A stretch of DNA of 64,000 bases from Streptococcus henryi DSM 19005 (GTDB taxonomy: Bacteria > Bacillota > Bacilli > Lactobacillales > Streptococcaceae): the NCBI RefSeq assembly GCF_000376985.1, contig NZ_AQYA01000036.1, positions 124,001 to 188,000 of the forward strand, given 5' to 3'. Below the pieces are notes generated by a model, which was not told the origin of the DNA, made no database searches, and saw only the letters and a list, made by a program, of their open reading frames with translations. Of the stretch, positions 13,908 through 18,803 are shown one piece after another. The translations under genes and the position numbers were made by a program. Position 1 is the stretch's first letter, and every line of letters begins with the position of its first letter.

Positions 13908-13940
13908 CAAAAAAGAAGAAGTTGAGTGACCTCAACTCCT
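13908..13940 (-). terminator. terminator of the DAHP synthase genes
   Basis: AGTTGAG/CTCAACT stem (13920-13937) with a downstream T-run (TTCTTCTTTTTTG) on the minus strand, separating aro from acpS-alr. Confidence 0.8.
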
Positions 13941-13950
13941 CCAAATTATA

Positions 13951-15023: not shown

Positions 15024-16055
15024 TTATTCTCCTAATGTATTGTAAATTTCACGAACAAGTTCTTCTGTTTTGTTCCAACCTAGGCAGGGATCAGTAATTG
15101 ATTTTCCATAAACCTCTGGCTTATCCTGGCGACCGTCTTCAATATATGACTCAATCATGAAACCACGAACTGCTTTACGAATACTTTCATTCCAATCACG
15201 ATTGATAAGGGTCTGACGAACAATACGGATTTGTTCAAGGTAGTTTTTACCTGAATTATCATGATTAGTATCAATCATGATAAATGGATTTTCCAAGCCC
15301 ATTTTTTCATACTGAGCTATAGTATCCAAAAGGTTATCATAATAATAGTTTGGAATGTTTTTTCCATACTCATTAATGGCTCCACGTAAAATAGCATGCG
15401 CTAATGGGTTACCAGAAGTTTCAACTTCTTCCCCGTTGAATAGGAAGTTTTGTGCTGATTGTGCAGCATAAATACCGTTGAACATAACGTTAAGATTACC
15501 TGAAGTAGGATTTTTCATTCCAGTCGGCACATCAATGCCTGATGCTACAAAGCGGTGTTGCTGGTCTTCAACAGAACGAGCACCTATAGCAATGTAAGAT
15601 ACCAAGTCATCAATCAAAGGCAGATTCTCTGGATAAAGCATTTCATCAGCTGTTGTTATTCCAGTCTCAGTAATTACACGATAATGAAGATTACGAACTG
15701 CACGAATACCATTGATTAAATTTGGTTCACCTTGAGCATCTGGTTGGTGAACAAGTCCTTTATAACCATCACCATTGGTACGAGGTTTAGCAGTGTAAAC
15801 ACGCATAACCATAAATACACGATCTTTCACTTCTTCTTGAAGCTTAGCAAGACGATTTGCATAATCAAGCACAACCTCTTCATTATCAGACGAACATGGA
15901 CCAATAACCAAAAGCATACGGTCATCTTCACCCTTCATGATAGCAGCCAACTCTTTATCACGCGCAATTTTATTAGCTAAAATCTCACCAGACAAGGTAG
16001 ATTCTTCTTTCACAGTTTCGAAATTAATTTTTTCACCTAGAGCTTTGAATGACAT
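15024..16055 (-). CDS. aroG: DAHP synthase, first paralogue
   Basis: Same enzyme family as the following gene; 343 residues with LLVIGPCSSDNE, AKPRTNGDGYKGL, SVEDQQHRFVASG and IDTNHDNSGKN. Two isoenzymes in streptococci are usually inhibited by different aromatic amino acids (Phe or Tyr); which is which cannot be read here. AAAGGAG lies 5 nt before the ATG. Expression is probably governed by the leader-peptide attenuator at 16090-16240, about 35 nt upstream of the start. Confidence 0.94.
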   Translation of the reverse strand: MSFKALGEKINFETVKEESTLSGEILANKIARDKELAAIMKGEDDRMLLVIGPCSSDNEEVVLDYANRLAKLQEEVKDRVFMVMRVYTAKPRTNGDGYKGLVHQPDAQGEPNLINGIRAVRNLHYRVITETGITTADEMLYPENLPLIDDLVSYIAIGARSVEDQQHRFVASGIDVPTGMKNPTSGNLNVMFNGIYAAQSAQNFLFNGEEVETSGNPLAHAILRGAINEYGKNIPNYYYDNLLDTIAQYEKMGLENPFIMIDTNHDNSGKNYLEQIRIVRQTLINRDWNESIRKAVRGFMIESYIEDGRQDKPEVYGKSITDPCLGWNKTEELVREIYNTLGE

Positions 16056-16089
16056 GGCTTCTCCTTTATAAATACTGAGACTCTTTCAC

Positions 16090-16128
16090 AGAAAACAACA
16101 AAATGCCTAGTCCACAAGGGACTAGGCA
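16090..16128 (-). terminator. attenuator terminator of the aro operon
   Basis: Perfect 9-bp hairpin GCCTAGTCC/GGACTAGGC (16105-16127, loop 5) followed by ATTTTGTTGTTTTC on the minus strand. Its 5' arm can instead pair with GGAGATTAGGC (16144-16154) inside the leader-peptide gene. Confidence 0.85.
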
Positions 16129-16140
16129 ATATATAGTCAA

Positions 16141-16179
16141 TCAGCCTAATCTCCAATATGGACAAGAATAGAAAAGCAT
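16141..16179 (-). CDS. aro leader peptide MLFYSCPYWRLG
   Basis: A 12-codon ORF upstream of two DAHP synthase genes. Four of its twelve codons are for aromatic residues (Phe3, Tyr4, Tyr8, Trp9). A weak GGAAA precedes the ATG. The codons for Trp-Arg-Leu-Gly overlap the antiterminator segment, and the stop lies 12 nt before the terminator hairpin, the geometry of a ribosome-stalling attenuator. Expected behaviour: ample charged tRNA lets the ribosome cover the antiterminator arm and transcription stops; stalling at the early Phe/Tyr codons frees that arm and transcription continues. Confidence 0.75.
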   Translation of the reverse strand: MLFYSCPYWRLG

Positions 16180-16203
16180 AAAATTTCCATGAAAATTTTA
16201 AAT

Positions 16204-16238
16204 TTTTTCTATTATACCATTTTGGAGCTCTTTTTCAA
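16204..16238 (-). promoter_or_regulatory. promoter of the aro operon
   Basis: -35 TTGAAA (16233-16238), 16-bp spacer, -10 TATAAT (16211-16216) on the minus strand, giving a start about 25 nt before the leader-peptide ATG. Confidence 0.75.
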
Positions 16239-16274
16239 AGTGATTTTTCAGAATTTTCAGCCTATACGTACAAT

Positions 16275-18803
16275 TTAGAATTGTCGGCGTCCGTGACAGT
16301 TCTTAAATTTCTTACCTGAACCACATGGACACAGATCGTTGCGTTCAACTCCTGAGAAATCAATTTTTTCTTTATTTACTGATGTTGGTGCTTTTGCAGT
16401 GATATTTTTCTCAGCTGTCGTTGTAGCATGATGGCTTGCACGCTCACGTTCGCGTTCGTGAATTTGTGCTTTCATCATCGTACGCGTCACATCAAACTCG
16501 ATAGCTCCCACCATATCTTGGAACATACGGAAACCTTCAGATTGATATTCAACGACAGGATTGTTTTGAGCGTATCCACGAAGGCCAACTGCTTGACGTA
16601 ATTGATCCAATGCATCAATGTGGTCAGTCCACTTGTTGTCCACAACCATCAAAATCAGTACTTTTTGGAATTCTCTTACTGCTTGTTCATCACGTAATTT
16701 AGACATTTGATTGTCGTAAACAGCGAGCGCACGATCGTAGAGATAGTCTTTGATTTCATCAAATTTCAAACCTTCAATGTCTGACAATTGAATTGAATCT
16801 TCTGCAACCAAGTTAGTCTTAGCAAAGTTTAAAATTGCTTCTAAAGCTTCTGTATGTTCGCTTCTGCTATGTGCATCGACTGTGCGATCAATTGTACGTT
16901 TGATCATTGCTTTGATTTCAGGTCCAAGATCACGATCTGCAGTAATGACATCACGACGTTCTGCATAGATAATTTCACGTTGTTCACGCATAACATCATC
17001 ATATTGAAGGACTTGCTTACGTGTATCGTAGTTATTACCTTCAACACGTTTTTGAGCACCTTCAACCTGCTTAGTTAACATACGTGATTTAATCACAACA
17101 TCTTCTTCCCCGTCGCTCAAACGTTCCATAAAGACTTTGATACGATCAGAACCGAAACGACGCATAAGATCATCTTCTAAAGAGAGATAGAATTGTGATT
17201 CACCTGGGTCACCTTGACGTCCTGAACGACCACGAAGCTGATTATCAATACGACGGCTTTCATGGCGTTCAGTACCAATGACACAAAGTCCCCCCAATTC
17301 ACGGACACCTTCACCAAGCTTGATATCTGTACCACGTCCGGCCATATTGGTTGCAATTGTAACAGCACCGCGTTGTCCAGCGTTCATAATGATTTGAGCT
17401 TCTTTGAAGTGGTTTTTAGCATTCAACACTTCATGAGGAACACCAGCTTCTACTAGTTTTTTAGAAATCAAATCAGATGTTTCAACAGCAACTGTACCAA
17501 CAAGTACAGGTTGACCTTTTTCATAGCGTTCCTTGACATCTGCAATTACTGCTCTAAATTTAGCCTCAAGTGTTGGATAAAGAAGGTCAGTATTGTCAAT
17601 ACGAATGACAGGACGGTTTGTTGGAATAGGGATGATTCGCATATTATAAACTTCACGAAACTCTTCTTCCTCTGTTTTTGCTGTCCCCGTCATACCCGCC
17701 AATTTTTTATACATGCGGAACATGTTTTGGTAAGTAATTGACGCACTCGTTTTTGACTCTTCTTGAATACGAACGCCTTCTTTAGCTTCAATAGCTTGGT
17801 GAAGACCATCTGAGAAGCGACGTCCTGGCATTGTACGACCTGTAAATTGGTCGACAATGAGGATTTCTTGCTCTTCAGAAACAACGTAGTCAATGTCTAA
17901 AAGCATGATAAAGTTGGCACGCAAAGCATTATCAATATAGTGAGTAAGGGCAACATTTTCAAGATCATAAAGATTTTCCAAGTGGAAATATTCTTCAGCC
18001 TTGTCGATACCGTAGTCTGATAAACCAATTGTCTTAGTCGGTACATCAATGATGTAATCTGTTGATTCAAGTGTTTTAACAAACATATCTGCACGAACAT
18101 ACAACTGACTAGTTTCTGAGCTTACAGCACCAGATACGATCAATGGCGTACGGGCCTCATCAATAAGAACTGAGTCAACCTCATCAACCAATGCAAAGTT
18201 CAATGGACGTTGAACCATGTCCTCTGCGCGAACGACCATATTATCACGAAGGTAGTCAAAACCAACCTCTGAGTTAGTTGAATATGTGATATCACAGTTA
18301 TAAGCTTCGCGTTTTTCTGATGGAGATTTGGCGGCCAAGTTAATCCCTACAGATAGACCAAGCCAACTGTAAACCTCTCCCATTTCAGTCGCATCACGTG
18401 TTGAAAGGTACTCATTAACAGTAATAACGTGAACCCCTTCACCTGCCAAGGCATTAAGATAAACAGGCATAGTCGCCGTCAAAGTTTTACCTTCCCCTGT
18501 ACGCATTTCTGGAACGTCACCATTATGGAGTACAATTCCCCCCATAATTTGAACATGGTAAGGATATAGTCCCAAGACACGTTTTGAAGCCTCACGGACT
18601 ACTGCAAATGCCTCTGGTAATAGTTGATCCAGTGTTTCACCTTTTTGATAACGTTCTTTAAATTCTGGTGTTTTTGCCTGTAATTCTTCATCAGTTAAAG
18701 CTGCCATTTCATCAGCGTAAGCCTCAACTTTCTTAGCAAGTTTCTCTAATTTTCTTAATTCACCTTTGTCATTTTCAATGACTGTACGTAGAATATTTGC
18801 CAT
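16275..18803 (-). CDS. secA: preprotein translocase ATPase SecA
   Basis: Motor ATPase driving export through SecYEG; 842 residues, normal. Walker A MRTGEGKT at about 99-106, [16 protein letters not shown] (DEAD-like motif II), [13 protein letters not shown] (motif VI), and a C-terminal zinc-binding tail [16 protein letters not shown]. The frame is open further upstream, but AAAGGA 6 nt before the ATG at 18803 and the canonical MANILR start fix the N-terminus. This is the housekeeping SecA, not the accessory SecA2. Confidence 0.98.

Follow-up and report, generated by a model that had tools for sequence, protein, structure and literature searches.

The aroF-aroG locus and its promoter

The leader discussed here is on the minus strand of the window, the whole stretch of 64,000 nucleotides that was analysed, which comes from the 2.42 Mb genome of Streptococcus henryi DSM 19005 (G000). 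The minus-strand gene order is secA, which ends at 16275, then the leader, aroF, aroG, a terminator-like hairpin at 13942 and an acpS-like gene, secA being called by Pfam and the acpS-like gene by eye. The initial annotation placed an amino-acid attenuator ahead of two DAHP synthase genes, and both genes are indeed of this family by PF00793 and TIGR00034, with aroG beginning 5 nt downstream of aroF. The promoter described ahead of them, TTGAAA-16-TATAAT, is present at 16238-16211 on the minus strand, and the promoter motif TGNTATAAT is invariant across 10 aligned species. Judged from the -10, transcription of aroF-aroG would start at about 16204. The features of the locus are collected in Table 1.

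There is also a CodY-like box at 16243-16257 in the window, just upstream of the -35, with 3 mismatches to the CodY consensus. The window has 17 such boxes against 12.6 expected, which is near chance, and the bases of this one are largely common to the aroF promoters of the ten-species alignment.

Table 1. Features of the aroF-aroG locus, in window positions
Feature	Position	Strand	Basis or remark
Sigma-70 promoter TTGAAA-16-TATAAT, extended -10 TG	16211..16238	minus	11/12 consensus bases
GGA, the sole Shine-Dalgarno-like bases seen before the leader ORF, weak	16186..16188	minus	by eye
Candidate leader-peptide ORF MLFYSCPYWRLG + stop, 12 codons	16141..16179	minus	sequence
Candidate control codons TTC TAT (Phe3 Tyr4)	16168..16173	minus	stall model
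Antiterminator outer 5' arm GUCCAUA	16157..16163	minus	predicted folding
Antiterminator core 5' arm GGAGAUUAGGC, overlapping ORF codons 9-12	16144..16154	minus	predicted folding
Intrinsic terminator hairpin, 10 pairs, -16.8 kcal/mol	16104..16128	minus	sequence and predicted folding
U-rich tail TTTTGTTGTTTT	16092..16103	minus	sequence
aroF-like class I DAHP synthase, 343 aa	15024..16055	minus	PF00793, NF009395, TIGR00034
Second class I DAHP synthase (aroG), 355 aa	13951..15018	minus	PF00793, NF009395, TIGR00034
Terminator-like hairpin after aroG	13915..13942	minus	window terminator scan

The leader terminator and its alternative pairing

A perfect 9-bp terminator with a T-run had been described between the promoter and aroF. 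The hairpin, TGCCTAGTCC-CTTGT-GGACTAGGCA, and the T-run are both there, with 10 pairs instead of 9. An ORF segment was also said to pair with the 5' arm of the terminator, and this is borne out: GGAGATTAGGC (16154-16144) pairs with GCCTAGTCC, which is that arm, and the pairing continues outwards as GTCCATA/TGTGGAC. In predicted folding the antiterminator core has an energy of -10.6 kcal/mol, the antiterminator and the terminator are mutually exclusive, and the antiterminator overlaps the end of the ORF. None of 200 shuffles folds as well as the RNA between 16186 and 16098 (z = -3.77), whose most stable structure is the antiterminator, with GUCCAUAUUGGAGAUUAGGC paired to GCCUAGUCCCUUGUGGAC, rather than the terminator.

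The duplex exceeds chance expectation. With the terminator 5' arm, the leader preceding the terminator forms a duplex of -14.4 kcal/mol, a value reached in 6 of 2000 dinucleotide shuffles (mean -7.3), and with the whole hairpin at -27.2 kcal/mol, which none of 2000 shuffles reach. Among 25 window terminators gathered by one rule it is the aro leader that has the strongest alternative pairing (-14.4, the next being -10.1). A terminator with an alternative pairing over the end of the ORF is thus statistically well supported, and as it sits between a conserved promoter and the gene it must be conditional if that promoter is used.

The hairpin could instead be a plain terminator for read-through from secA that now lies after the aro promoter and regulates nothing, with aroF and aroG expressed weakly or by read-through. 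The proximity of the end of secA and the lack of any other minus-strand terminator in a scan of 16000-16400 are in keeping with this, as are the hairpins found between secA and aro genes in other species, for example G202 and G090. However in G202 the hairpin is upstream of the promoter, the place expected for a secA terminator, whereas in the aro leader of G000 it follows a conserved promoter and its alternative pairing is improbable, and we consider a plain terminator unlikely.

The full set of parts of a classical attenuator had been claimed for this leader, including a competing early hairpin formed by TCCA and TGGA. That hairpin exists, but at -1.4 kcal/mol it is weak as a protector, and because of this the untranslated leader RNA, folded with no ribosome, is predicted to be 97-99% antiterminated, so that the claim of a full classical set does not hold. 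With the trp-type protector missing, loss of translation should therefore switch the aro genes on, and this default-on prediction is easy to test. A protector (1:2) hairpin that gives termination without translation marks the trp-type subclass only.

The same folding result bears on a further possibility, that the ORF is translated so little that the antiterminator always wins and transcription just runs on through the leader, the device being a relic or still in the making. The weak Shine-Dalgarno and the lack of conservation of the leader, both discussed below, would fit such a leader as well, but it leaves unexplained the presence in G000 of both a strong terminator and the pairing, and we regard it as very unlikely.

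The candidate leader ORF and the stall model

The 12-codon ORF with Phe, Tyr and Trp codons that was reported initially is found at 16179-16141 on the minus strand and reads ATG CTT TTC TAT TCT TGT CCA TAT TGG AGA TTA GGC TGA; the aromatic codons of MLFYSCPYWRLG are F, Y, Y and W among the 12. By a strict rule (ATG start, 8-30 codons, at least 4 F/Y/W and at least one third F/Y/W) an aromatic-rich ORF arises in 546 of 20000 shuffles (2.7%), so that the peptide by itself, or the composition of its ORF alone, is weak evidence. Strong pairing and an aromatic ORF occur jointly in 4 of 40000 shuffles, and the aro leader is the sole one of the 25 window terminators to have a strict-rule aromatic ORF. 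Aromatic ORFs become common once the rule is relaxed to three F/Y/W within four codons, or four within eight, from any start codon: 65 of the 186 upstream regions then have one, often in an alternative secA frame. Shuffles of the aro leader itself give four F/Y/W in eight codons in 80 of 1000 cases with an ATG start and in 209 of 1000 with any start.

The main weakness of the leader-peptide model is the weak Shine-Dalgarno of the candidate ORF MLFYSCPYWRLG. It pairs at -3.3 kcal/mol, where 35 long ORFs, with the first ATG taken as the start, have a median of -8.8 and aroF has -9.1, and it beats only 17% of those 35 starts. An overlapping second ORF on the minus strand, MEILCFSILVHIGD (window 16146-16190), has six branched-chain codons of 14 and a start signal weaker still, at -2.2 kcal/mol.

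It may be that the same terminator and antiterminator are worked by another factor, such as a protein, transcription speed or translation of a different frame, for example MEILCFSILVHIGD (16190-16146), with the aromatic codons coincidental. Another factor is favoured by the much stronger support for the pairing than for the ORF, by the 2.7% chance rate of aromatic ORFs given above, and by two of 38 named loci that have a strict-rule ORF of unrelated sequence (L023 and L026, see below). However the antiterminator arm coincides with the final four codons of the ORF, which a ribosome terminating there would cover, and no Rfam family matches the window at gathering score; we hold another factor to be somewhat unlikely.

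In E. coli pheL and trpL, as in the aro leader model, there are control codons and a terminator before a biosynthetic gene, and the position of the ribosome decides the pairing. They have a strong protector hairpin and strong translation signals, whereas the aro leader has two candidate control codons only.

With regard to ribosome position, we folded the RNA downstream of a ribosome stalled at each codon, with its leading edge set 12 or 15 nt beyond the first P-site base. When the A site holds Phe3 the antiterminator has 97-99% for the 12-nt edge and 9-13% at equilibrium for the 15-nt edge. For a stall at Tyr4 the terminator wins at equilibrium, its share being 86-100% for Tyr4 or for Phe3 with the 15-nt edge. 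With the ribosome at Tyr4 the antiterminator core is nevertheless 99-100% formed until the 3' arm of the terminator is nearly complete, and as the core forms before that arm and the terminator wins only at equilibrium, the predicted outcome depends on kinetics. For a Tyr4 stall, or Phe3 with the 15-nt edge, the attenuator model would thus need kinetic trapping. At Tyr8 with the 12-nt edge a weakened core is present at 58-92% until the 3' arm is complete; if kinetic trapping is strong, a stall there would likewise leave a weakened core, which would count against the model. A stall at Tyr8 with the 15-nt edge, or at Trp9 onward, covers most of the core and the terminator forms in the model, and with the ribosome at the stop codon the terminator is at more than 99%.

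Sensing of Phe and Tyr, and possibly Trp, had been suggested. The stall model agrees for Phe3 and perhaps for Tyr4, but makes sensing of Trp unlikely, as a Trp9 stall would cover most of the core and a Tyr8 stall part of it.

In the mechanism that we propose, when Phe and Tyr are plentiful the ribosome would reach the end of MLFYSCPYWRLG and cover GGAGAUUAGGC, the terminator would form and transcription would stop. A shortage of Phe (or Tyr) would hold the ribosome at codon 3 or 4, leaving GGAGAUUAGGC free to take the terminator 5' arm before the 3' arm is made, and RNA polymerase would read on. The analysis shows the sequences of promoter and terminator, the alternative pairing and where it lies with respect to the ORF, and the families of the two genes; translation of the ORF, termination and the response to Phe and Tyr are what we infer here. 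That the leader is a ribosome-mediated transcription attenuator of aroF-aroG sensing charged tRNA-Phe and, less, tRNA-Tyr has in our judgement about an even chance of being right. What we have is a well-built candidate for a conditional terminator, for which a Phe/Tyr leader peptide is plausible but unproven.

Related leaders in Streptococcus and beyond

We sought aroF relatives in 284 genomes of the genus at E up to 1e-100 and found them in 243. The upstream DNA was compared for the 148 best-matching aroF copies from among the matches listed (147 genomes, G073 being present twice), and 38 of 80 named aroF loci were scanned, the other 42 being left out. The promoter motif TGNTATAAT is within 60 nt of the start of the aroF match in 45 of the 148 regions and further away in 6 (G000, G189, G224, G036 and, twice, G073), with no exact match within 300 nt in the remaining 97. 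Between promoter and aroF, and clear of the promoter, a terminator-like hairpin is found among the 51 promoter-bearing regions only in G000 and, in imperfect form, in G224. G000 alone among the 148 has a strict-rule aromatic ATG ORF within 200 nt of aroF.

In an alignment of ten chosen species all ten have the promoter and only G000 and G189 have a long insert. G189 is the sister of G000 in an aroF tree of 33 rows (support 99/97), and its 132-nt aroF leader is without an ATG ORF and without a terminator. An alignment of the leader in related streptococci, looking for conserved aromatic codons, had been proposed as a check, and no relative examined shares the ORF. There is thus no comparative support, which means that the device is lineage-specific, recent or fortuitous; if real, it is probably lineage-specific. 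Its birth could in that case be placed, as the sister has a leader at the same site with neither ORF nor terminator and most other promoter-bearing relatives examined have the promoter right before the gene.

A BLAST search of the 284 genus genomes, with three candidates scored per genome, recovered the whole leader only from G000 itself. Short matches occur in 45 other genomes at E up to 0.05, the best having an E of 4.7e-4 for one genome. This match, in G098 (92% over 26 nt), lies between genes that by eye are rny- and gmk-like, and neither it nor the match in G010 has any aro context; we do not treat either as a homologue. In its own genome the terminator tail finds itself alone with up to 3 mismatches allowed, and an exact 30-mer is absent from the viral contigs searched (plasmid search: none).

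G224 was considered as a second case. Its 141-nt aroF leader (L121, 1345-1500) has a GTG ORF, MKFYFFESCQYL..., and alternative hairpins with a duplex reached in 11 of 2000 shuffles, and is perhaps a separate attenuator. We have set it aside, as 196 of 1000 shuffles yield such an ORF, which is thus no rarer than expected by chance, and as its alternative arm seems to come ahead of the F-Y-F-F codons, so that a stall there would not free the arm. The GTG ORF is not shared by the relatives G073 and G036. G073 has a different aromatic ORF, found in 47 of 1000 shuffles (ATG only) and without a start signal, and upstream of its aroF (L158, 170-263) there is a sub-threshold match to SSRC8_2, a Streptococcus sRNA family, at 39 bits against a gathering score of 72.

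The two named loci of the 38 with a strict-rule ORF within 200 nt of an aro gene are from Aquibacillus (L023) and Floricoccus (L026), and their ORFs, unrelated in sequence, are likely due to chance. In Aquibacillus saliphilus the ORF MFYWWSTSFK (L023, 1310-1370) overlaps a hairpin of 13 bp that has a T-run, is located ahead of a DAHP synthase gene and between two candidate -10 boxes, and may be chance or another leader. The Floricoccus ORF, MKKVVHYLYYFNNF, is by eye between two aro paralogs.

Known attenuators, T-boxes and other leaders

The list of leader-peptide attenuators in Firmicutes is short, and the aro leader, if real, would extend it to control by aromatic amino acids. PMC5864092 describes Rli60 of Listeria monocytogenes, an ilv ribosome-mediated attenuator tested by mutants. 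It too is from a Firmicute, with a 13-aa leader peptide where the aro leader has 12 codons, and serves branched-chain amino acid (BCAA) genes with BCAA codons where those of the aro leader are aromatic. The energies in its figure legend are -10.3 and -17.1 kcal/mol (PMC5864092, the first taken as the antiterminator), against -10.6 and -16.8 for the aro leader. Given this similarity, the model is not weakened by the terminator being preferred at equilibrium. In contrast to the readthrough predicted for the aro leader without translation, loss of the start codon or RBS in Rli60 is described as super-attenuating (PMC5864092). The more specific reading, of a recent Phe/Tyr leader-peptide attenuator of DAHP synthase in one streptococcal lineage, with a default opposite to that of Rli60 such that untranslated RNA would give readthrough and termination would require a ribosome that completes the peptide, we put forward tentatively and think rather doubtful.

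The ilv-leu operon of S. aureus has a leucine-rich attenuator peptide backed by suppressor mutants, and it and the aro leader are alike in being of a Firmicute biosynthetic operon with a leader ORF and terminator; that peptide differs in being a 26-aa BCAA one with a putative RBS 9 nt before the start and with homologous peptides aligned (PMC5794164). Leader peptides are also predicted there for BCAA genes of L. lactis and Streptococcus (PMC5794164). For hisS and hisZ of bacilli, His leader peptides were predicted from sequence (PMC2965389). As with the aro leader this is a sequence prediction of a Firmicute leader peptide where relatives have a T-box, but for another gene and amino acid, and the His leaders of hisZ and of a hisS paralog closely resemble each other.

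In S. agalactiae transcriptome work, elements before gbs1262 and gbs2033 were proposed to sense aromatic amino acids or their precursors (PMC4448216). The terms aroF and DAHP are absent from PMC10942264 and PMC2494555, as is "leader peptide" from the former, and a literature search covering few subscription papers gave, among the titles listed, none on a leader-peptide attenuator of a streptococcal DAHP synthase.

The T-box (RF00230) is among the Rfam families without a match in the window at gathering score. The G000 genome has 13 T-box hits, all below the Rfam cut-off and none on the contig of the window. RF00230 is found at gathering score in 7 of 8 aro loci labelled Enterococcus, Trichococcus or Sedimentibacter. 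The T-box leaders of the Enterococcus and Trichococcus DAHP synthase genes resemble the aro leader model in that tRNA charging controls the same gene family, and differ in reading the tRNA directly without a leader peptide, whereas the aro leader here has no T-box. Elsewhere in G000 three T-box hits are close together (contig C35, 52065-53965; L140, L141 and L151), and the L151 hit is directly before an ORF that by eye resembles trpB.

Two other aroF leaders were observed. In S. hillyeri (L022) the promoter is 223 nt from aroF and there is a long structured leader containing a T-run, for which no Rfam match was found at E 0.1. In mitis-type streptococci (L174, L206, L262 and others) there is a hairpin, CGGAT(A/G)CC...GG(T/C)(A/G)TCCG, between secA and aroF. 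Five examples matched no Rfam family at E 0.1. It is present in 49 of the 148 genus regions and 7 of the 38 named loci, 23-27 nt before aroF, and is followed by TTTGCTTTATAA in 52 of these 56. By eye there are paired changes on both sides, and the hairpin is possibly a conserved processing site or an attenuator.
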